Below the pieces are notes generated by a model. The model did no database searches and was not told the origin of the DNA. It worked only from the letters and a program-made list of their open reading frames with translations. From the NCBI RefSeq assembly GCF_021298855.1, contig NZ_JAJTHI010000029.1, positions 1-60,863 of the forward strand: a stretch of DNA of 60,863 nucleotides, read 5' to 3'. Shown here one piece after another: positions 1 through 60,863 of the stretch (positions are counted from its first letter, which is position 1; each line of letters begins with the position of its first letter). The position numbers were made by a program, and so were the translations under genes. This DNA is from Gemmatimonas sp. (GTDB taxonomy: Bacteria > Gemmatimonadota > Gemmatimonadetes > Gemmatimonadales > Gemmatimonadaceae).

Positions 1-84
1 CAGAGCCCTGATCAGCCCTGGGTCATAAACACCGCCCGCACATCCATCGATCTCTTCCTCGGTTGTCAAATAGCGTCCTGCCAT
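1..84 (-). CDS. Partial hypothetical protein at left edge (N-terminal 28 codons)
   Basis: An ATG at 84 reads leftward off the window. An in-frame TAG a few codons upstream makes this ATG the likely start. The visible peptide begins MAGRYLTTEEEID and contains a G-G-V-Y-D-P stretch. That stretch loosely resembles sequences seen in HD-GYP proteins, but 28 residues are too few to name a family. The ribosome binding site is weak. It could be a short broken gene instead. Confidence 0.35.
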   Translation of the reverse strand, partial: MAGRYLTTEEEIDGCAGGVYDPGLIRAL

Positions 85-500
85 CCTGCGCGTAACCGCT
101 TGCGGCTACACAAGTTCCTGCTTTTTCGTCAGCCGCCGTTTTGGCGGAAGATCTAACTAATAACCTGATGGAAGTTCGGCGTCAACCCCTGCGCGATCGC
201 CTTGCTGATCTTTTTTCGAAGATCGGGGATCGTCGGCAAGGACGCCCTCGCGCTCACACCGCTCCGTGAGCGACGGCCCGCGCAGCATTACCGCGGACCC
301 CCAGCCAGCGCATTTCCTCAGGTTGTGGACCCGGCGGGAGCAGGAACAGCTCGGCGGGTACGCAGCAACCGCGGCGCGTGCGGCGGGTCGGGGATATAAG
401 CACATCGGATCCCCAATGTCAACCGGGGCATTCGCTGCGCGCGAATGCCCCGGCCGGTTCCCGCTGCGCAGACGCGCCTCAGCGGCGCCGGTGCCACGGC
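85..500. other. Non-coding stretch between the left-edge gene and secA
   Basis: No open frame here has the look of a real protein: the candidates are low-complexity Arg/Ala/Pro translations. The stretch is locally less GC-rich (runs such as ctttttcg and ctaactaataac). It holds a small hairpin at 133-147 (CCGCC/GGCGG, loop GTTTT), an imperfect palindrome around 200-240 containing GATCTT/AAGATC, and the strong hairpin at 423-453 listed separately. I looked for SRP RNA, tmRNA and tRNA signatures and found none. Confidence 0.5.
423..453 (-). terminator. Hairpin terminator candidate downstream of secA
   Basis: Perfect 13-base inverted repeat, 423-435 with 441-453, with a 5-base loop (tgcgc). It lies about 50 bases beyond the secA stop on the minus strand. 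There is only a short T-poor tail (TTGACATT on the minus strand), so intrinsic termination may be weak. The position at the end of a long directon favours a terminator. Confidence 0.55.
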
Positions 501-3833
<3,333 letters not shown>

Positions 3834-3891
3834 ACGTCCCTCTGGACCTCATGGCGAGGACAGTGGTGCGCAGCATCCGGGCCGCCATGGC

Positions 3892-4506
3892 TCAGCTGTC
3901 TGCGCGATCCGCCGTCCGGGAATTCTCGTGATACAGCCCGGTGGATGCGATGTATGTCGCCACGGATTCCGGAACGAAGCCCTTGAGTGAGCGTCCATCG
4001 CGGACCCGCGCCCTGATTTCGGTTGACGACACATCCACCCGTCGCGTGCTCAGCCAGCGAACCGTCTGCGCGCCGTGAATCTCCTGCTCGAGCGGAGGGG
4101 CTCCGCCGGTGTCCCGATGCAGTACGACCAGCCGTACCATGCCGAGCAACCGTTGCGGATCCTTCCAGCGTGGCAACGTGGGGACCACGTCACTCCCGAC
4201 CAGCAGGTGGAGTTGTGCAACCGGCCATCGCCGCCGCACATCCTCCACGGTGTCAACCATGTAAGATAACCCACCCCGTGCAATTTCTACGGGGTCGACC
4301 TCAACCCGCGGTACGCCGTCGAAACAGGCCCGGACCATGGCCAGTCGGTGTTCTGGCGGCGTCTGCTCGTGGCCCTTCAGCGGCTGTCTGGCCGCGGGAA
4401 TGACCAGGAGGTGATCGAGCGCCAGGGCGTCCATGGCGTCCTGCGCGATGATCAGGTGGCCGATGTGCGGCGGGTCAAAGCTGCCGCCAAGAAGCCCCAG
4501 TTGCAC
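3892..4506 (-). CDS. nadD: Nicotinate-nucleotide adenylyltransferase
   Basis: NadD adenylates nicotinate mononucleotide to deamido-NAD in NAD synthesis. The 204-residue protein opens MQLGLLGGSFDPPHIGHL, the nucleotidyltransferase GSFDPxHxGH signature. It ends with the SSTEIRARVRDG (ISSTxIR-type) motif and a short C-terminal helix, both typical. Length is normal. It starts 15 bases after bamD and precedes secA by 58 bases, so it is probably co-transcribed with them. The pairing of NAD synthesis with envelope genes looks incidental. Confidence 0.95.
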   Translation of the reverse strand: MQLGLLGGSFDPPHIGHLIIAQDAMDALALDHLLVIPAARQPLKGHEQTPPEHRLAMVRACFDGVPRVEVDPVEIARGGLSYMVDTVEDVRRRWPVAQLHLLVGSDVVPTLPRWKDPQRLLGMVRLVVLHRDTGGAPPLEQEIHGAQTVRWLSTRRVDVSSTEIRARVRDGRSLKGFVPESVATYIASTGLYHENSRTADRADS

Positions 4507-4521
4507 CTGGCGTGGGGGAGG

Positions 4522-5370
4522 TCAGCGCCGCGCCGGCGGCGCCGGACGCGCGTAGGCGACGGGGGACGAGATGGCGCTGGGCGGAACGGCGCTCGGCTTG
4601 GCCGTATCCACGGGGGCCGCACCGCACGCGGTGCGGACTTCCGTATCCCCGGGATATGCCTTCCACATGGCGCTGCACGTTTCCGCCGCGTCTTCCTTCC
4701 AACGGATCTTCGTGTACAGCTCATGCAACCGCAGCCACGACAGCCGGGCGGCTTTCGTGGTGGGATACGTGGTGACGATGTCCTTGAGGTAGATGATCGC
4801 GCCGTCGACCACGGGGCGCACCTTGATGTAGTGCACCGCCGTCTGGTAATCCTTGAGCGCGAACCACTCCTCCAGCTGGGTGATGCGCTGCTTGGCCTCT
4901 TCGGTTTCCTTCGCGTCAGGATACGACGAGAGGAGCGCGCGCAGCACCGACGCCGCCTTCTGCCCTTGCTCAGGGTCGAGCGACGGGCGCCGCCAGATGC
5001 TCTGGTAGGCCCGCCCGGTCCCGAGCATGGCCATGGGCGCCAGCGTGTCGTCGGGAAATCCGTCCGTGACCCGCTCGAAGGCCTGCGCCGCCAGCAGGAA
5101 CTCCTTCTTCCGCTCGTGCGTGAGCGCCAGGTAGAAGTACGCCGGTGCCAGCAGCGGATCGCGCGACGACAGGTCGCTGGTGAGCCGCTCGAACCCCAGC
5201 TGGGCGTTGTCCCATTTCTTCTGCTGGAACTCGAGCAGGGTGGCCTGGAACAGCGCTTCGGGTGTCGCGAAATCGCGTGGCTGAAATCCGCGCCCGCAGC
5301 TGGCCAGCGCCGTGGCAACGGCGAGCAGGACCAGCAGGCGGAATTCGACGCGATTGGGGAAATGACTCAT
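4522..5370 (-). CDS. bamD: Outer membrane assembly lipoprotein BamD
   Basis: BamD is the essential lipoprotein partner of BamA in inserting beta-barrel proteins into the outer membrane. The start is set at MSHFPNRVEF because it gives a proper signal peptide: a basic start, a hydrophobic stretch LLVLLAVATALA, and lipobox LASC about 25 residues in. An upstream extension of the frame lacks any signal character. Five TPR-like helix pairs follow (ALFQATLLEFQQKKWDNAQ; FLLAAQAFERVTDGFPD). The tail is long and Pro/Ala-rich. Length is about 282 residues against about 245 in E. coli. It lies between the uronate dehydrogenase gene and nadD. Confidence 0.88.
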   Translation of the reverse strand: MSHFPNRVEFRLLVLLAVATALASCGRGFQPRDFATPEALFQATLLEFQQKKWDNAQLGFERLTSDLSSRDPLLAPAYFYLALTHERKKEFLLAAQAFERVTDGFPDDTLAPMAMLGTGRAYQSIWRRPSLDPEQGQKAASVLRALLSSYPDAKETEEAKQRITQLEEWFALKDYQTAVHYIKVRPVVDGAIIYLKDIVTTYPTTKAARLSWLRLHELYTKIRWKEDAAETCSAMWKAYPGDTEVRTACGAAPVDTAKPSAVPPSAISSPVAYARPAPPARR

Positions 5371-5419
5371 GCGACGGAAGATACCCGGGAAGTGCGGCGC
5401 AGGTTCGTGGACGGGGGCG

Positions 5420-6775
5420 TTATGGCAGGGCGGCCAACGTCGAGCCGGATGCCAGCGGCACGATACGCGCCCGACCGGGGGTGAGCCCCGCGGTGACGTT
5501 GCGCGTATCCACCACGAGGGTAGCGTGATCGACGACGCGCTGGTAGTCCACGGCCTTGTGGTCGGTGACCACGACCACGGCGTCGGCCCACCGCAGCATC
5601 TCATCGCTCAGCTCGACCCCCTTCCGGCTGTGGCCCTCCTCCCGGAACTCGCTGACGAACGGGTCGTGGAACTCGACATGCGCCCCGCGTTCCTCGAGAA
5701 GCCGGATCACGTCCAACGCCGGGCTTTCTCGCACATCGTCGATATCGCGCTTGTACGCCACGCCGAGCACGAGCAGTCGGCTGCCGTGCACCGCCTTCCG
5801 CACCTCGTTGAGGGCGTCGGCCACCTTCTGCACGACCCACTCCGGCATGTGGGAATTGATCTCGCTGGCCAGGTCGATGAAGCGCGTCTTGTAGTTGAGC
5901 GTGCGCATCTTCCAGGCAAGGTAGTGCGGATCGAGGGGAATGCAGTGCCCGCCGATACCTGGCCCCGGGGTGAACTTCATGAACCCGAACGGCTTGGTGG
6001 CGGCCGCATCGATGACCTCCCAGACGTTGACGCCCAGTTTGTCACAGACAATCGCCAATTCGTTGACCATGGCGATGTTCACGGCCCGGAACGTGTTCTC
6101 GAGGAGCTTCACCAGCTCCGCCGCCTCCGGCGAACTGACCGGCACCACGGTATCGATGCAGCTCTCGTACAAGGCCGTGGCCACCTCGACGCAGGCCGGA
6201 GTGATGCCGCCGACCACCTTCGGGGTGTTGCGGGTGTGATAGGTGGGATTGCCGGGGTCGACGCGCTCGGGGCTGAAGGCCACGAAGATGTCCTGCCCGA
6301 CGGTGAGCCCCTTGGCTTCGAGACGCGGCTGCAGCAGTTCGCGCGTGGTGCCGGGATAGGTGGTGCTCTCGAGCACCACGCAGAGTCCGGGGTGCGCCTG
6401 CCGGGCAATGGCATCGGCCGCACTCAACACATAGGCCATGTCCGGGTCGCGCGTCTTGGACAGCGGGGTGGGCACGGCGATGGAGATGGCGTCGCACTCG
6501 CCCAGGCGATCCTCGATGGCGGTGGCGACGAGCTTGCCACTGGCCACGGCAGCCTTCACGGCGTCGGCGGGGACATCCTGGATGTGCGACTCCCCAGCCA
6601 TGAGCAGGTCGACCACCCGGGTGCTCACGTCGTAGCCGATGACCCGGAAGCCGGCGTGCACGAACTCGATGGCCAAGGGGAGTCCGACGTAGCCGAGGCC
6701 GATCACGCCGATGACGGCGGTACGGTCGGCGATCTTTGCCAGCGCCTGGTCTTTCACGGCAGTCATCTCAGTCAT
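5420..6775 (-). CDS. wbpA: UDP-N-acetyl-D-glucosamine 6-dehydrogenase (WbpA/TviB type)
   Basis: An NAD-dependent dehydrogenase oxidising UDP-GlcNAc to UDP-GlcNAc uronate in two steps. The 451-residue protein has the N-terminal Rossmann motif GLGYVGLPLAIEF, VLESTTYPGTT, and the diagnostic segment GPGIGGHCIPLDPHYLAWK, which carries the catalytic Cys. A C-terminal UDP-binding domain contains RDIDDVRESPALDV. The assignment to UDP-GlcNAc rather than UDP-Glc or UDP-ManNAc rests on the neighbours, which supply the next three steps to UDP-2,3-diacetamido uronate. It starts 13 bases after the aminotransferase gene. UDP-ManNAc dehydrogenase (WecC) is the alternative. Confidence 0.88.
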   Translation of the reverse strand: MTEMTAVKDQALAKIADRTAVIGVIGLGYVGLPLAIEFVHAGFRVIGYDVSTRVVDLLMAGESHIQDVPADAVKAAVASGKLVATAIEDRLGECDAISIAVPTPLSKTRDPDMAYVLSAADAIARQAHPGLCVVLESTTYPGTTRELLQPRLEAKGLTVGQDIFVAFSPERVDPGNPTYHTRNTPKVVGGITPACVEVATALYESCIDTVVPVSSPEAAELVKLLENTFRAVNIAMVNELAIVCDKLGVNVWEVIDAAATKPFGFMKFTPGPGIGGHCIPLDPHYLAWKMRTLNYKTRFIDLASEINSHMPEWVVQKVADALNEVRKAVHGSRLLVLGVAYKRDIDDVRESPALDVIRLLEERGAHVEFHDPFVSEFREEGHSRKGVELSDEMLRWADAVVVVTDHKAVDYQRVVDHATLVVDTRNVTAGLTPGRARIVPLASGSTLAALP

Positions 6776-6788
6776 ACGGGAATGCGAC

Positions 6789-7901
6789 TCAGCGGCCGAA
6801 GTACGCGCGAACGGCCGCGATCACTTCGTCGAGCTGGGTCGTAGTGAGCTCGGGGTAGACGGGCAGGGACAGCACCTCGCGCGAGGCCTTCTCCGCCTCG
6901 GGGCACTGCCCTTCGCGGTAGCCGAGATAGGCGAAACAGGGCTGCAGGTGCAAGGGGAGCGGATAGTAGACGTTGGAGCCGATGCCGCGCTCCTTCAAGT
7001 GCGCCTGCACCGCCTCCCGCCGCGGCACGCGCACCGTGTACTGGTTGTAGATCGACGTATTGGCCGGATCGATCCAGGGCGTGACCAGCTCCGGCACGTC
7101 GGCAAAGGCCGCGTCGTAGTAGGCCGCGTTGCGACGTCGCGCTTCGCTCCATGCGCCGAGATGCGGCAGCTTGGCCCGCAAGACGGCAGCCTGCAGGGCG
7201 TCGAGACGACTGTTGTAGCCGACGATCTCGTGGTAGTAGGTCCGTCGGCTGCCGTGGGTGCGCAGTTTCATGAGCGCCTCGAAGAGCGCCTCGTCCTGCG
7301 TGACCATCATGCCGCCATCGCCGTACCCGCCGAGATTCTTGGAGGGGAAGAAGCTGTAGGTGCCGATGGCCGCGGCCTCCCCCGCCATGACCGTACGCCC
7401 CCCGATGCGCCGGCTGGCACCGATGGATTGCGCGGCGTCCTCGATGACGGGCCGCCCCTGGGCCGCCTCACTCACCTGTTCGATGGGGGCCATCTGGCCG
7501 AAGAGATCCACGGCGATGACCGCGCGCGTGCGCGGCGTGATGGCCGGGGTGATGGCGTCCGGGGCAATGTTGAACGAGCGCGGATCGATGTCGACGAACA
7601 CCGGGCGCGCGCCCACGTTGTGAATGGCGCCACCCGTAGCGAAGAACGTGAAGGGCGTGGTCACGACCTCGTCGCCGTGCCCCACGCCCAGCGCGCGCAG
7701 CGCGAGCAGAATGGCGTCGGTCCCGTTGGCGCAGCCGACGGCGTACTTCACCTGCGAGAGCCCGGCGACGCTGCATTCGAGCTGCGCCACGGGATCGCCG
7801 AGGATGAAGGCCTGCTGGTCGACGACCTCCATGAGCGCCGCCACGACCTCGTCGCGGATGGTGGCGTGCTGCGCCTTCAGGTCCAGAAGTGGAACAGCCA
7901 T
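6789..7901 (-). CDS. wbpE: PLP-dependent sugar aminotransferase (WbpE type, DegT/DnrJ/EryC1 family)
   Basis: Predicted to aminate the 3-keto group of UDP-2-acetamido-3-oxo-glucuronate, the step after the WbpB-type oxidation. The 370-residue protein has the DegT-family fold: CANGTDAILLALRALGVG (substrate and PLP phosphate region), TPFTFFATGGAI, DIDPRSFNI, IEDAAQSIGA, and the PLP lysine within FFPSKNLGGYGDGGM. The C-terminus has the family's SNVYYPLPLHLQP segment. It sits 14 bases after the dehydrogenase gene and 13 before wbpA. Substrate is inferred from context; the family is certain. Confidence 0.9.
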   Translation of the reverse strand: MAVPLLDLKAQHATIRDEVVAALMEVVDQQAFILGDPVAQLECSVAGLSQVKYAVGCANGTDAILLALRALGVGHGDEVVTTPFTFFATGGAIHNVGARPVFVDIDPRSFNIAPDAITPAITPRTRAVIAVDLFGQMAPIEQVSEAAQGRPVIEDAAQSIGASRRIGGRTVMAGEAAAIGTYSFFPSKNLGGYGDGGMMVTQDEALFEALMKLRTHGSRRTYYHEIVGYNSRLDALQAAVLRAKLPHLGAWSEARRRNAAYYDAAFADVPELVTPWIDPANTSIYNQYTVRVPRREAVQAHLKERGIGSNVYYPLPLHLQPCFAYLGYREGQCPEAEKASREVLSLPVYPELTTTQLDEVIAAVRAYFGR

Positions 7902-7915
7902 GTCTCTCCTGCCGA

Positions 7916-8977
7916 TCAGATGTTCACGCGCAGCGGAAGGGGGACATCGCGCCCCGTCTTCGCCGACTCGTAAATGCCGAGAATGAGTTCCAGCGACTTG
8001 CGTCCCGCCCGGCCGTCGGTGTCGGGCTTGGCCAGCCCGCGCAGCACCGAGACGACGTTCCGGTAGTACCCCTCGTGTCCGAAGCCGTACACGCTGGGCG
8101 GGTTGGTGTTGGCCTGCTCGACGAGCTTGTCGTCGTCGTCGTAGTCCGCGAACTGCCAGTGCTCAACCTTGTTGACGGCGGTCCCCCCGATCTTCACGGT
8201 GCCCTTCTCTCCGAGGATGGTGATGCTGCCCTCGAGGTTCTTGGGGAAGGTGAGCATGGTGACCTCGATGGTGCCAATGGCCCCGGACCGGAACTTCATG
8301 ATGGCCACCCCGCTGTCCTCGGCCTCGATGCGCCGCGCGAGCGTCGCGGTCTTGGCCATGACGCTCTCGACGGGCCCCACGAGCCACTGCACGAGATCGA
8401 CGTAATGCGACGCCTGGTTCATGAACGCCCCGCCGTCGAACTCCCACGTGCCACGCCACGGGGCCTGATCGTAGTACTCCTGCGGTCGTGTCCAGCGCAC
8501 CGTGCAGTTGGCCATGTAGATCCGGCCGAAGCGGCCGCGATCGATGGCCCGCTTGAGCAGCACGATGGGCGGATTGAGACGGTTCTGCTTGACCACGAAG
8601 AGATGCACGCGGTGGTCATCGCAGGCCTGCACGAGTGCGTCCGCCGCCGCCAGCGAGATGGCCATGGGCTTCTCGCTGATGACATGCCGCCCGGCGCGCG
8701 CGGCGGCGATGCCATGCTGCGGGTGGAGGCCACTGGGGGTGGCGATGACGACGGCGTCGCTGGGGACGCGCGCCAGCATCGTGTCGAGGTCGGTGAACCA
8801 GGGCACACCGGCCGCATCGCCGGCCTGCGCCGCCCGCTCCGGGACGATGTCGCACACGGCGACCAGGTGCAGGTCGGGGATCTTCGCGATGGCGTCGAAG
8901 TGATTGCGACTGATGCGGCCACACCCCACGAGGGCGATGCGAATGGGCCGGTCCGCCGGAATGCTCCCATCAGTCAT
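7916..8977 (-). CDS. wbpB: Gfo/Idh/MocA-family UDP-sugar 3-dehydrogenase (WbpB type)
   Basis: Predicted to oxidise C3 of UDP-GlcNAc uronate to the 3-keto sugar. The start is taken at [11 protein letters not shown] (8977). It gives a normal N-terminus just before the Rossmann motif [14 protein letters not shown] and overlaps the stop of wbpD as ATGA. The family motif SEKPMAIS follows, then the C-terminal alpha/beta substrate domain ([18 protein letters not shown]). At about 353 residues it is of normal family length. An upstream extension of the frame is Arg-rich shadow sequence. In Pseudomonas aeruginosa this enzyme works with WbpE; the same adjacency is kept here. Confidence 0.87.
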
Positions 8978-9654
8978 GCCTGCTCCTCCGTCCGCACGAC
9001 GGTATCCCCGCGCCGTTCGTACACCGTTCCGGTTCCCGGACAGCGCAACCGCTCCACGCCGTGCTCGACGGAGTCGGCGCCGGGGACGCGTTCCAGTCGG
9101 AACCCCGCCTCGGACATCCACCCGATCCGTCGCGCCGGCACGCCGGCGACGAGCGCATAATCGGGCACGTCGCGATTCACCACGGCGCCGGCGCCAATGA
9201 AGGCGTAGCGGCCGATGGTATGACCACACACGATGGTGGCGTTGGCGCCGATGCTGGCTCCCCGCTTCACCAGGGTGCTCCGGTATTCGTTCTTGCGGGA
9301 GATGGCACTGCGCGGGTTGTACACGTTGGTGAAGACCATGGACGGACCGCAGAACACGTCATCCTCCAACTCCACGCCTTCGTAGACCGACACATTGTTC
9401 TGGATGCGGACGTTTTCGCCGATGCGCACCCCCTTCATGACGACGACGTTCTGCCCGAGGGAACACCGCGAACCGATCACGGCCCCGCCGTTGACGTGAC
9501 AGAAGTGCCAGATGCGCGTGTGGGCGCCGATGACGGCGCCATCGTCGACATAGGCGGACGCGTGGACGAGGGCCCCCTCGCCGAGGGAGGCGCCGGCCGC
9601 CACATGCCCCACCCCGGGCTGCGCGATCATTTCCGGCACGGACGGCGCGTTCAC
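8974..9654 (-). CDS. wbpD: UDP-sugar N-acetyltransferase with left-handed beta-helix (WbpD type)
   Basis: Predicted to acetylate the 3-amino group made by WbpE, giving UDP-2,3-diacetamido-2,3-dideoxy-glucuronate. The sequence is a run of hexapeptide repeats ([28 protein letters not shown] and onward) with the [17 protein letters not shown] segment. It then has a short tail with a few beta-strand-like residues ([11 protein letters not shown]). I chose the GTG at 9654 because it overlaps the carB stop as GTGA, implying coupled translation. An ATG frame upstream reaches 9696 but lies inside carB. It overlaps wbpB by 4 bases. Confidence 0.85.
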
Positions 9655-12600
9655 GCGACCCCGGCGCCCTGATGCGCCGCCAGAATCTCGTGCCACTCCT
9701 GCAGCGAGCGCACCCCCGGCTCGCGCAACCGTCGGGCCGCAATGGCCTCGACGGCGGCGTTGGCGGCCGTGAGCGTGGTGGTGTACGGCACCCGATTGGC
9801 GATCGCGGCCTGGCGGAGCTTCTCGTCATCCACTTGCGCGTGCTTGCCCAACGGCGTGTTCACGAGCAGCTGGATCTCGCCGTTCAGGATGAGGTCCACG
9901 CCATGTGGCCGCCCCTCGTGCACCTTGAGCACGGCCGTGACCGGTACCCCCTGCGCCCGGAAGAACGCCGCCGTTCCGCTGGTGGCGCACACGGAGAAGC
10001 CAAGGGCATGGAAGCGCTGCGCCAGCGTGGCCGCCGTGGGCTTGTCCCCATCGTTCACGGTGAAGAACACGGCACCTTCGGACGGCAGGGCATTGTCGGC
10101 CGCGATCTGCGACTTGAGGAACGCGGTCCCGAAGTCCTCGTCGATGCCCATGACTTCGCCGGTGGAACGCATCTCCGGGCTGAGTACCGGATCGAACTCC
10201 CGGAACTTGTTGAACGGGAACACCGCTTCCTTGACGCTGATGTAGGGCGGCACGATCTCCTGCGTGAACCCGATCTCGGCCAGCGTCTCTCCCAGCATGA
10301 GGCGCGCGGCCACCGATGGCAGCGACACGCCGATGGCCTTCGACACGAACGGCGCGGTGCGTGACGCGCGCGGGTTCACCTCGATGACGTAGACCTGCCC
10401 ATCCTTGTAGGCATACTGCACGTTGATGAGTCCCACCACGCCAAGCCGTCGCGCAAAGGCCATGGTGTGCGCCTTCATCTGCTCCACGGCCGCCGGCGGA
10501 ATGAGATACGGGGGCAGGATGCAGGCGGAGTCGCCGGAGTGAATGCCGGCGCTCTCGATGTGCTCCATGACGGCGCCAATGACCACGTGTTCGCCGTCGG
10601 AGAGGGCGTCGACATCGGCCTCGAACGCATCCTCGAGGAAGCGATCGACGAGCACGGGGCGCTCTTCCGACACGCGTGCCGCCCGCTCGAAGTAATCGCG
10701 CAGCGACGGCTCGTCGTGCACGATCTCCATGGCGCGCCCCCCGAGCACGTAGGACGGGCGCACCAGCACGGGGAACCCGATCGTCTGCGCGATGGTGACG
10801 GCTTCCTCGACGCTGGTGGCCGTGCCATTGGCCGGCTGCTCGATACCCAGTTCCCGGGCAATTGCCTCGAACCGGCGACGGTCTTCCGCCGTGTCGATGG
10901 CATCGGGTGAGGTTCCCAGAATGCGCACGCCGGCCGCCTCGAGCGGCCGCGTGAGCTTGAGCGGCGTTTGCCCGCCAAGCTGGACGATGACCCCCTCCGG
11001 CTGTTCGCGCTCGACGATCTCGAGCACGTCTTCCAGCGTGAGCGGCTCGAAGTACAGCTTGTCGGATATGTCGAAGTCGGTGGAGACCGTTTCGGGATTC
11101 GAGTTCACCATGATGGTCTCGTATCCCTGCTGCCGCAGCGCGAGCACCGCGCGCACACAACAGTAATCGAACTCGACACCCTGCCCGATGCGATTGGGCC
11201 CCGACCCGAGGATGACCACCTTCTTGCGCCCGGCCGTCGCGGCTTCGCTTTCCTCGTCGTAGTTGCCGTACAGGTACGGGGTGCTGGACGGGAACTCGCC
11301 GGCGCAGGTGTCGATCATCTTGTACGACGGTCGCACGCCCAGCGACCAGCGCAGGGCCCGCGCCTCGAGCTCGGTCTGCGCGCGGAGCGCAGCGAGCTGC
11401 CGGTCGGAGAACCCGAGACGCTTCATGCGCCGCATGGCCTCGGCGTCCACTGCGGGCAGGGCCGCGTACGTCGCCTCGGCATCGAGCAACTCCCGCATCT
11501 GATCCAGGAACCATGGATCGATGCCCGAGATCTCGTGCAGTTCGGCGGTCTGCATGCCCAGCTGCATGGCCCGCTTGAGCTGGAAGATGCGCTCGGGAGT
11601 GGGGCGGCGCAGTGCGCCTCGCAGTTCCTCGCGGGAGCCTTCCACCAAGCGGTCGTCCTGCAGCCGCTCGCCGATGCTCCATCCCGTGCGCCCGGTTTCC
11701 AGGGCGCGCAGCGCCTTCTGGAAGGCCTCCTTGAAGGTGCGTCCGATGGCCATGGACTCGCCCACGGACTTCATCTGGGTGGTGAGCCCCGGGTCGGCCG
11801 CGGCGAACTTCTCGAAGGCGAACCGGGGGCACTTCACGATGACGTAGTCGAGCACCGGCTCGAAGCTGGCCGGCGTGGTCTTCGTGATGTCGTTGGGCAC
11901 CTCATCGAGGGTGTACCCCACGGCAAGCTTGGCGCCGATGCGCGCGATGGGGAACCCGGTGGCCTTCGATGCCAGGGCGGAGGAGCGCGACACGCGCGGG
12001 TTCATCTCGATGACGATGAGCTCGCCGTCGCGCGGATTGACGGCGAACTGCACGTTGCAGCCACCCGCATCGACGCCGATCTCGCGGATGATCGCCACGG
12101 CCGCGTCGCGCATGACCTGGTACTCACGGTCGGTGAGCGTCATGGCCGGCGCCACCGTGATGGAATCGCCGGTGTGCACGCCCATGGGATCGAGGTTCTC
12201 GATGGAGCAGACGATCACCACGTTGTCCGCGCAGTCGCGCATCACCTCCAGCTCGTACTCCTTCCAGCCCAGCAGCGAGCGTTCGATGAGCACCGAGTGC
12301 ACCGGCGACAGGTCGAGACCGCGCCGGACCATGGTCTCGAACTCCTCGCGGTTGTAGGCGATGCCTCCGCCGGTGCCGCCGAGGGTGAACGACGGGCGAA
12401 TGATGGCGGGGAAACCGGTGTTCTCGACCGCTGCGAGCGCCTCATCGAGGCTGGTGACGGTCGTGCCGGTCGGGCACTTGAGCCCGATCTTCTCCATGGC
12501 CTCGGCGAAGAGCTTGCGGTCTTCGGCCACGCGAATCGCGCGCGCGTTGGCACCGATGAGCTCGCAGCCGTAGCGGTCGAGCACGCCGTCGTCGTACAGC

Positions 12601-12902
12601 TTGAGCGCCACGTTGAGGGCCGTCTGTCCGCCCATGGTGGGGAGCACCGCATCGGGGCGCTCCTTGGCGATGATCTTCTCCACGAACTCGGCGGTGACCG
12701 GCTCGATGTACGTCCGATCGGCGAACTCCGGATCGGTCATGATCGTCGCCGGATTGGAATTCACCAGAATGACTTCGTAGCCCTCCTCGCGCAGCGCCTT
12801 GGTCGCCTGCGTTCCGGAGTAGTCGAATTCAGCAGCCTGCCCGATCACGATCGGGCCAGAGCCGATCACGAGAATCCGGTGCAGGTCAGAACGTCTCGGC
12901 AT
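9651..12902 (-). CDS. carB: Carbamoyl-phosphate synthase large subunit
   Basis: CarB makes carbamoyl phosphate from ammonia, bicarbonate and two ATP for arginine and pyrimidine synthesis. The 1,083-residue protein shows the internal duplication of the family. The first half begins [22 protein letters not shown] and contains [10 protein letters not shown]. The second repeats [21 protein letters not shown] and [10 protein letters not shown]. Each half has an ATP-grasp domain with a VIEVNPR-type or VIEMNPR-type motif. An MGS-like allosteric domain closes the C-terminus ([20 protein letters not shown]). carA is not nearby. The gene is inside a nucleotide-sugar operon, overlapping rmd by 17 bases and wbpD by 4. 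Confidence 0.98.
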
Positions 12903-13887
12903 GGAGGAGGTCTTCGATGATGTCGTCGAGTGAACGCTGCGCGCGCCATCCGGTGGCGCGCTGCAGCTTTCGCGGATCCCCGATCAGCACGGGGACGTCA
13001 ACTGGTCGGACCAGCGCGGGGTCCTCGGTGGGAACGGCACGCGTCCCCGTGCGTGCGATCACCAGATCGAGGAGTTGCTGCACCGACCATCCGGTACCGC
13101 TGGCCACGTTGTACGCCTCGCCGGGCGTGCCCCGCTGACAGAGGGAAATATACGCAGCCACGACGTCACTTACATGCAGGAAGTCGCGAACCGGCGAGCG
13201 ATTCCCCACCAGCATGGGCGTCCCTGCGGGCGCACTGGCCAACGCCCGGGCGCGCTGCACCAGCGCCGGCAGGACGAAGCGCGGGGGCTGGCCGGCCCCA
13301 CTGTGATTGAAACTGCGGGCCACGACCACGGGCAGTCGGGTGGCACGCCAGACCTGGAGCGCCAGCAACTCCTGCGCTGCCTTGGTGGCCGCGTACACCG
13401 TTCGCGGCGCCTGGACCGCCTCCTCGCGCAACGGCATCACGTGTGAGTCGTGCCGGCCATACTGTTCGGCGCTTCCCACGATGAGCACCAAGGGGTCGAC
13501 CCCGCTTCGCTCGCGCTGACGGTCGAGCTGGTGGAGGAGCCGCGCCGTGGCCGTCACGTTCACATCCCAGGCGGTGGCCGGATCGGCCGCGGCGGTGGGC
13601 ACGTGGGAGATGGCCGCCAGATGCAGCACCGTGTTGGGCCGGGCCGCGTCGACCACGCGTCGCACGTAGTCCTCGTGGCGCAGGTCGCCCACGAACCACG
13701 TGGCCCCGTGGTCGGGCAGCGCCGCGCCGCCGCCCGTGTCGCGGGAGTCCGACGGCATCGCCAGCGCGAACACCTCGGTGCCCTGGGCCCGCAGGGCGGG
13801 CAGCAGCCATTGCCCCACGAAGCCCGCGGCGCCGGTCACGAGGACACGCCCGAGGGGCCGATCACCCGGTGGCGTCACAGTCGGCAT
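12886..13887 (-). CDS. rmd: GDP-6-deoxy-D-mannose reductase (NAD-dependent epimerase family)
   Basis: Predicted to reduce GDP-4-keto-6-deoxy-mannose to GDP-D-rhamnose. The start at [11 protein letters not shown] (13887) precedes the glycine-rich [14 protein letters not shown] motif; a longer frame adds only low-complexity Arg/Ala sequence. The SDR YxxxK pair is present in [12 protein letters not shown], and [12 protein letters not shown] and [13 protein letters not shown] follow, as in Rmd. About 333 residues. It lies 35 bases downstream of gmd, whose product supplies the substrate. GDP-L-fucose synthase is less likely because its motifs differ; another 4-keto reductase is possible. Confidence 0.8.
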
Positions 13888-13922
13888 GCGGTCACCCTGA
13901 CGAGCATCCACGCGGGGGAGGG

Positions 13923-15044
<1,122 letters not shown>

Positions 15045-59081: not shown

Positions 59082-59134
59082 GCGTCGGCCGGTGCTGCCC
59101 GCTTCCCTTCCCTCTCCTTCCGAATCCCGTGCTC

Positions 59135-60256
59135 ATGGCTCCGCTTGAACAGATCACCCTGCGTGAAATCCGCCTGCCCTTGCGCGAACCTTTTCGCATT
59201 TCGTCGGGGGCGACGTCGGAACGTCGCATCACGCTGCTGGAACTGCGTGATGGCGACGGCGTGAGCGCCTGGGGTGAATGCGTCGCCCCCGAGGAACCCA
59301 ACTATCGCGAAGAGGCCATCGATACGGCGTGGATTGCCATTGCACAGTGGGTCGCCCCGCGGGTGCTCGGACGCCTGTTCGCCCATCCACGCGACATCCA
59401 CGCGGCGCTCGAGCAGGACTTCCGCGGCAACTTCATGGCCAAGGCGGCGGTGGAAATGGGCATGTGGGTGCTGGAAGCCACGCGTCAGGGGGTGCCGCTG
59501 GCGCAGCTGCTGGGGGGCACGCGACGGGAAATCGCGACGGGGATCTCGTTGGGCATTCAGTCGTCGCCCGAGGCACTGGTGGAGAAGGCGCGGGCCGCCA
59601 TCGCGGAGGGTTACCGCAAGGTGAAGATCAAGATCGCCCCCGGTCAGGATGTGGCGTACGTGCGCGCCGTGCGCGAGGCGCTTGGCCCTGACGCCCCACT
59701 CATGGCCGACGCGAACAATGCCTATCAGCTGTCGGACGCCGACCTGCTGGCGCAGCTCGACGATCTCGACCTCATGATGATCGAGCAGCCGTTGGCGTGG
59801 GATGACATCGTGCAGCATGCCACGCTGCAGCGGCGGCTGCGCACGCCGTTGTGCCTCGACGAGTCGATCACGTCGGTGGACCGTGCGCGCGACATGGTCA
59901 CGCTCGACTCGGGGCGCATCATCAACATCAAGCCGGGGCGGGTGGGGGGCTTCACCAGTTCACTGGCCATTCACGACTACTGCGTGAGTGCGGGGATCCC
60001 GGTGTGGTGCGGCGGGATGCTGGAGAGCGGCATCGGGCGCGCGTGCAACGTGGCGCTGGCGTCGCTGCCGGGGTTCACGAAGCCGGGCGACCTGTCGCCG
60101 AGTGCGCGCTACTGGGCGCGCGACATCGTCACGCCGGAGTGGACCATGAGCGCCGACGGCATGGTGCCCGTGCCGTGGGATACGCCGGGGCTCGGGGTCG
60201 AGGTTGACGTGGACCGGATTGACGATCTCACGGTGCGGCAGGTGGTGCTGCGCTGA
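59135..60256 (+). CDS. menC: MenC-family enolase: o-succinylbenzoate synthase or N-succinylamino-acid racemase
   Basis: About 373 residues (ATG 59135; a GTG two codons earlier is possible). Enolase-superfamily barrel with all catalytic residues: KVKIKIAPGQD (KxK), ADANNAYQLSDA (Asp), MIEQPL (Glu), LCLDESITS (Asp) and INIKPGRVGGF (Lys). N-terminal lid starts LREIRLPLREPFRISSG. OSBS makes o-succinylbenzoate for menaquinone; NSAR racemises N-succinyl amino acids. No other men gene is present, while GNAT and M20 genes are adjacent. That favours NSAR or a bifunctional enzyme. A strong terminator follows. Confidence 0.88.
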   Translation: MAPLEQITLREIRLPLREPFRISSGATSERRITLLELRDGDGVSAWGECVAPEEPNYREEAIDTAWIAIAQWVAPRVLGRLFAHPRDIHAALEQDFRGNFMAKAAVEMGMWVLEATRQGVPLAQLLGGTRREIATGISLGIQSSPEALVEKARAAIAEGYRKVKIKIAPGQDVAYVRAVREALGPDAPLMADANNAYQLSDADLLAQLDDLDLMMIEQPLAWDDIVQHATLQRRLRTPLCLDESITSVDRARDMVTLDSGRIINIKPGRVGGFTSSLAIHDYCVSAGIPVWCGGMLESGIGRACNVALASLPGFTKPGDLSPSARYWARDIVTPEWTMSADGMVPVPWDTPGLGVEVDVDRIDDLTVRQVVLR

Positions 60257-60325: not shown

Positions 60326-60337
60326 TCTGTACGGCAG

Positions 60338-60383
60338 TGGAGCGTATCGGGATCGAACCGATGACCCCCTGCTTGCAAAGCAC
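60338..60383 (-). pseudogene. 3' part of a tRNA-Ala(TGC) gene; probable attachment site
   Basis: Read on the minus strand, the sequence contains the anticodon loop TTTGCAA with anticodon TGC, the stem half GCAGG, the variable region, the T-arm ATCGG-TTCGATC-CCGAT, and the acceptor strand ACGCTCC with discriminator A. Upstream, where the 5' half (acceptor GGAGCGT, D-arm and CCTGC stem) should be, is unrelated sequence; the anticodon stem breaks after three pairs (GGTGC instead of CCTGC). A remnant of this kind is what integrase-mediated insertion at the 3' end of a tRNA gene leaves at the far end of the element. Confidence 0.75.
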
Positions 60384-60551
60384 CCTGTCCGCAGGCCATC
60401 AGCGCAAGGCGCGATAGGCTTCAGAGGGAGAACGGCGATCTGCAGGTAAGCGGCGCAAGCCGCGGTTCGCGCGGCGGCAGCGGAGCAAAGCCAGCGCGGC
60501 GCGGCCTTGTTGACCGACGTCGGCCGTAGCCCACAGATAGAGGCGCCGGAG

Positions 60552-60863
60552 ATGACTACGGCCGCCGCTGACACGTTGGCGCCCGGCGAGCGTGCGGTGT
60601 CCACGAAGTACGTGCCGCCCGCCGTTGGTACGGTGATCGCCGTGATTTCACGCGGGTATTGGGCCCTGCTCGCCCCCGTTCGCGGCATCAAGCGCGCGGT
60701 GCTTCGTGCGGCAGATGAGGGCGGTCTCGACGGGATCGCCGAGTGCATCGCTCCCGTGATCTGGACGCGCTTCACCGGGGAGCACGCGAGCAACAGTGCT
60801 CCCGATCTCGTCAGCGTCGTCCGGAAGGCGATTCAGCCGAAGCCTGTCGTCGAGGAAGTCGCG
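60552..60863 (+). CDS. Partial hypothetical protein at the right edge (first 104 codons)
   Basis: An ATG at 60552 opens a frame that runs to the window end: MTTAAADTLAPGERAVSTKY, then VPPAVGTVIAVISRGYWALLAPVRGIKRAVL, ending RKAIQPKPVVEEVA. It has a GAGG 8 bases upstream. No family is recognised. It lies on the element side of the tRNA-Ala remnant, so it may belong to an integrated element. The 160 bases before it hold nothing I can identify. Confidence 0.5.
   Translation, partial: MTTAAADTLAPGERAVSTKYVPPAVGTVIAVISRGYWALLAPVRGIKRAVLRAADEGGLDGIAECIAPVIWTRFTGEHASNSAPDLVSVVRKAIQPKPVVEEVA

Follow-up and report, generated by a model that had tools for sequence, protein, structure and literature searches.

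A tRNA-Ala(TGC) 3′ fragment at a Gemmatimonas contig end very probably marks a decayed element inserted at a tRNA gene

In the available part of the Islander report (PMC4383910), tRNA-integrated islands consist of an intact tRNA gene and a displaced 3′ fragment with the island lying between them. The term CIME is used, in the accessible text of PMC5704250, for an element that is without integration and transfer genes but keeps attL and attR. The AICEs of actinobacteria, such as pSAM2, combine a rolling-circle Rep with integration into tRNA 3′ ends, according to the portion of PMC3218068 available. Among the papers listed by full-text searches of an open PMC library, none describes such an element in Gemmatimonadota in its title or opening abstract.

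The locus reported here is like the islands of Islander, as far as the available text of PMC4383910 describes them, in fragment orientation and in the anticodon-side attachment block; it differs in that Islander requires an integrase inside the island, while the complete copy of the element in the congener G008 has none and none was found on the two contigs that border the element in the genome studied here, G000. The best fit is the CIME, since the G008 copy keeps both attachment copies and has neither an integrase nor a recognized transfer gene, although CIMEs are described, in the accessible text of PMC5704250, as decayed ICEs or IMEs, which for the G008 copy is a putative origin. AICEs, to judge from the same available portion of PMC3218068, are the closest described combination of Rep and tRNA integration, and int and HTH genes lie near rep in two genomes of other genera (G257 and G324). 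Unlike AICEs as presented there, the element, in its complete G008 copy, has no recognized FtsK-type transfer gene, its Rep is Rep_1-like rather than RepSA, and its host belongs to the Gemmatimonadaceae; we do not file it as an AICE. The pC194/Rep_1-type plasmid Reps (PF01446) have the HPHxH motif in common with the G008 Rep, which differs in that it scores below the family cut-off and is encoded on a chromosome.

The window, that is, the whole stretch of 60,863 nucleotides analyzed, is contig C80 of G000, a 4.09-Mb Gemmatimonas assembly in 91 contigs. The tRNA 3′ half near its right end is identical at 46 of 46 nucleotides to C11:229-274, which belongs to an intact tRNA-Ala(TGC) called by ARAGORN at C11:229-302. 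Such an exact match to a tRNA is not due to chance. Base 60336 is also common to the stub and the tRNA copy, and divergence from the tRNA 5′ half begins at 60383. Neither ARAGORN nor Rfam reports a whole tRNA at the window end, as expected if only a stub remains. A preliminary description of this DNA had placed the stub from 60338 to about 60383, right to within one base, and had correctly seen that unrelated sequence replaces the 5′ half of the tRNA; the complete tRNA-Ala(TGC) that it called for, identical in its 3′ half and in direct orientation, is the gene on C11. Table 1 lists the features of the window end.

Table 1. Features around the junction in the window, with strand and basis of assignment
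Feature	Coordinates	Strand	Basis
MR_MLE (mandelate-racemase/muconate-lactonizing-family) gene, chromosomal flank	59129..60256	+	ORF; Pfam MR_MLE_N and MR_MLE_C; G015 homologue 98% aa
tRNA-Ala(TGC) 3′ half, displaced stub, attR-like distal attachment site	60337..60382	-	46/46 identity to C11:229-274; duplicated block versus G015
Segment of 78 nt at the left terminus of the element	60383..60460	+	conserved, 96% identical in G008 and G012
Deletion scar; missing from the window here are ~115 nt that carry the AAGTAGTAC repeat pair, present in G008 and G012, and most of rep, present in G008	60461..60506	+	alignment; repeat search
Open frame running off the contig end, C-terminal remnant of a Rep_1-like replication gene	60507..60863	+	ORF (119 aa); tblastn to G008 Rep; alignment

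An uninterrupted site was found in G015, the closest relative of G000 as judged by the neighboring MR_MLE gene (98% amino acid identity), in which an intact tRNA-Ala directly follows that gene. Within 15 kb of G015, the window flank aligns to positions 1-3069 (91% identity, up to window position 60381) and the C11 flank, which holds an SDR-like gene, to positions 3024-15001 (94% identity), the two meeting end to end with an overlap of 46 nt. Flanks that overlap in this way mark an insertion with a 46-nt direct repeat at its two ends, and the element of G000 is thereby placed between C80:60383 and C11:227. Comparison with close relatives lacking the insertion had been recommended in the preliminary description, and its prediction of an element above 60,383 holds in geometry, given the partner tRNA on C11 and the empty site in G015. 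The site is also uninterrupted in G017, which is near G008. We infer the linkage of C80 to C11 through the element from synteny with G015, the two being separate contigs with the middle of the element unassembled. In a comparison that took in as much as 20 kb from each of the other contigs of G000, no piece continued C80 or C11 (C22 and C51 were represented by a stretch from inside the contig, five contigs read as N, and contigs of 3 to 9.7 kb were additionally scanned by eye). A 50-amino-acid C-terminal frame at C11:1-152 has no recognized identity. As a separate observation, the anticodon stem of tRNA-Ala(TGC) has two alleles in the genus (L038, L133, L134, and L146 versus L003, L077, and L140), and G015 carries the other allele than G000.

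A whole element is contained in a single contig of G008 (G008:C2), where the two 46-nt tRNA copies, one in an intact tRNA and one in a stub, lie 4001 bp apart. Both G000 and G008 thus retain attL and attR, as CIMEs do, and both present an intact tRNA with a direct 3′ fragment downstream, an arrangement read from G015 synteny in G000 and directly from one contig in G008. The G008 element encodes a 395-amino-acid Rep and a 491-amino-acid protein with a Trypsin_2 domain (trypsin-like protease). Among its open frames of at least 90 amino acids, the two large ones of which were scanned with Pfam, no integration or transfer gene was seen; no FtsK/SpoIIIE-type transfer protein was recognized in the complete element, and its contig has no PF00589 match, so that the integrase filter of Islander would not pass it.

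The G008 Rep is identical to a Rep in CANGXD010000002.1 (MAG Gemmatimonadaceae bacterium RE-15aug16-119). Against PF01446 (Rep_1) it scores 23.5 bits, under the cut-off of 33.2; its homologues in G257 (36.8), G373 (33.9), and G122 (44.3) exceed that cut-off and the one in G324 (32.1) falls just short of it. The HUH metal-binding motif HPHxH is aligned in the G008 Rep and these four homologues, and the window remnant is without that part of rep. The best database relatives are plasmid proteins annotated as "protein rep", with 28 to 30% identity among the best matches listed; none of the plasmid records matched (93 at an E-value of 1e-3 or better, the best listed being 4e-13) covers 80% of the query. 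The Rep has no match among solved structures. Six loci with Rep relatives were fetched from other genera. In two of them, a tRNA, a PF00589 integrase, and an HTH-like gene are found in the neighborhood of rep: G257, with tRNA-Lys and an HTH_17 domain above the cut-off, and G324, with tRNA-Gly and tRNA-Leu and an HTH_17 domain below it. No tRNA was found at the other four loci, two of which are contigs under 5 kb. In G324 (L128, 5911-6675), a CAP12/Pycsar-type TIR gene, possibly a defense cargo, lies between integrase and rep.

In the window, rep has been reduced to a tail. The preliminary description had noticed a new, unrecognized frame beyond the stub; the frame is real and open from 60507 to 60863, but by tblastn and alignment it is what remains of the 3′ part of a deleted rep, not a gene in its own right. 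Compared with the G008 Rep, the window remnant is 84% identical over 25 residues, and reading from 60435 meets one internal stop. The frame matches nothing in Pfam or PHROGs, and a plasmid search with the window end gave, in the best 8 of 306 records, matches in the tRNA part only. The window and G012 have an internal rep deletion in common, and the window is without a further ~115 nt. Over 177 nt of the rep tail, the window differs from G012 at 5 positions and from G008 at 51, the latter distributed 12/11/28 over the three codon positions, as would be expected if this stretch had stopped coding only a short time ago. Downstream of an amber codon, the tail resembles other Reps no more than suggestively (E = 0.014 in a set of 24 sequences that includes 20 shuffles). 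The frame is open to either side of window positions 60657-60662 and their homologous positions, where G008 and G012 read TAG and the window reads TGG.

The junction is sporadic. Stub and left terminal segment together, over 124 to 126 nt, are present in 3 of 30 genomes of the genus (G000, G008, and G012); in a class-wide sample of 394 genomes, the full junction was recovered from G000 itself and G012 (G008 was not among the matches), and three further matches are short look-alikes in three other genera with no tRNA in the locus. Conservation of the arrangement across distant relatives, which would have spoken against an insertion according to the preliminary description, is therefore not what we observe. 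The same junction in the assemblies of two other species also means that it is not an assembly chimera in G000. In G005 (G005:C23, 8137-18000), the tRNA-Ala stub is cut at the same nucleotide and followed by a different element end; the frames of this element, one of them transposase-like, were named by eye. The G005 genome is 84% complete, and a search of it gave no match to an intact tRNA-Ala(TGC). The other tRNA-Ala loci lie in related chromosomal neighborhoods by synteny, and tRNA-Ala(TGC) accordingly seems to be an insertion site that is both shared and variable.

An integrase gene beside the tRNA-Ala, as originally predicted, was not found. PF00589 has four matches in G000, on C22, C47, C65, and C52; none is on C80 or C11, and no candidate for the tRNA-Ala site was found. 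Those on C22, C47, and C65 look like host XerC/XerD genes, by eye from their neighbors and by general resemblance. C65 (L050) resembles a partial second copy of the C47 region (L048), with near-identical XerC-like ends, perhaps because of strain variation or contamination in the assembly. On C52 (L049, 978-2622), an integrase with an Arm-DNA-bind_3 domain lies beside a sequence read as a tRNA-Asn 3′ fragment, which the tRNA-Asn on C51 (L158, 1470-1543) matches over 78 nt at 92%; the C52 integrase thus probably serves another site, and C52 and C51 may well represent a second tRNA-integrated element in G000. Host XerCD as the recombinase was tentatively set aside on the basis of the dif sequence.

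Possible traces of the recombinase are short repeats. The G008 element has four copies of AAGTMGTACC in one orientation, in two pairs 12 bp apart that lie ~100 to 140 bp from the two tRNA copies (4 observed, whereas 2000 shuffles averaged 0.002 and never gave more than 1); the left pair is kept in G012 and gone from the window. These repeats may be integrase arm sites, a reading weakened somewhat by G009 (L164, about 9740-9790), in which an intergenic five-unit array of 12-bp repeats resembling AAGTAGYACACC, like those of the element, has no integrase beside it. A paired-repeat search of the 30 genus genomes returned G008, G012, the one G009 array, and a one-mismatch match in G004.

Taken together, the partner tRNA on C11, the empty site in G015, and the sporadic junction support the original reading of integration at a tRNA 3′ end. 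The stub is very probably the attR-like distal end of an element that entered a Gemmatimonadaceae chromosome at its tRNA-Ala(TGC) gene by site-specific insertion and has decayed in this copy; the element is best read as a CIME-like remnant of a tRNA-Ala-integrating element, and the insertion is an ordinary kind of genomic island. Most likely, a tyrosine integrase would have recombined attP of the element with an attB located between the anticodon and the 3′ end of tRNA-Ala. The crossover would fall in the 46-nt stretch that begins in the anticodon stem and closes with the tRNA 3′ end; it would restore a full tRNA at the opposite end of the element, on what is now C11, and leave the old 3′ half in the window. 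The integrase would have been supplied in trans or by a since-deleted gene. The core of the family, common to three congeners, would be the rolling-circle-type (Rep_1/HUH-like) rep gene, mostly deleted from the window copy, which has apparently lost its left repeat pair as well. Integration is favored by the ends contained in one G008 contig, the identical junction in G008 and G012, the different element at the same cut in G005, the repeat pairs close to the two ends of the G008 element, and the two Rep relatives of other genera with a tRNA, an integrase, and an HTH gene nearby. Against it count the search for an integrase for the tRNA-Ala site, which found none in G000 or in the G008 element, the separate state of C80 and C11, with no continuation of either in the contig stretches compared, and the four of six outside Rep loci at which no tRNA was found.

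The ends of C80 and C11 both fall within the putative element, and a contig edge invites the suspicion that not site-specific integration but local duplication, homologous recombination, or an assembly join made the stub. This origin is hardly credible, as the cut recurs in three species that differ in their chromosomal left flanks and one of which has the two ends on the same contig, G005 has the same cut with a different element, and the G015 empty site is clean. That the element is not an integrating plasmid-like element but what is left of a prophage, such as a filamentous one, is improbable. The appeal of this reading lies in the Rep, which resembles Rep proteins in 15 phage records, Bifilivirus among them, at less than 60% identity in every case and matches PHROG 11698 (unknown function) at an E-value of 7e-23. 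The plasmid records match it with equal or better E-values, however, and no phage structural gene was recognized in the complete G008 element. Neither the Rep nor the window frame has a relative in viral contigs, the 22-nt left-end pattern has no exact match there, and the frame has no relative in phage records; a viral origin was rejected on the viral contigs and on the absence of a recognized phage gene in the complete element.

A less distant competitor, still unlikely on balance, is a family that is non-autonomous by nature: it would never have had an integrase and would rely on that of other elements inserting at this tRNA-Ala. It would account for a G008 element that has a repeat pair near each end and the two attachment copies but no integrase, for the few rep-tail differences between the window and G012, which belong to different species and may thus have exchanged the element recently, and for the presence of another element in the same site in G005. 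Yet no helper element with the same repeat pair was found in the 30 genus genomes, and the two Rep relatives of other genera with an integrase nearby make integrase loss simpler than never having had one. We therefore retain a decayed tRNA-Ala-integrating element as the preferred reading.

A half-tRNA at a contig edge has become a mapped insertion site with an empty site, a complete relative, and decayed relatives. A finder that needs an integrase inside the island, as Islander does in the available text of PMC4383910, would miss the G008 copy. It is tempting, if rather doubtful, to imagine in the Gemmatimonadaceae a family of small non-autonomous rolling-circle-rep elements, equipped with arm-like repeats and attachment sites but lacking an integrase, that spread between species by the borrowed integrase of unrelated elements at the tRNA-Ala(TGC) site, such as that of G005. 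If the integrase is truly borrowed, the element family would offer a simple natural test of trans-mobilization at a tRNA site.
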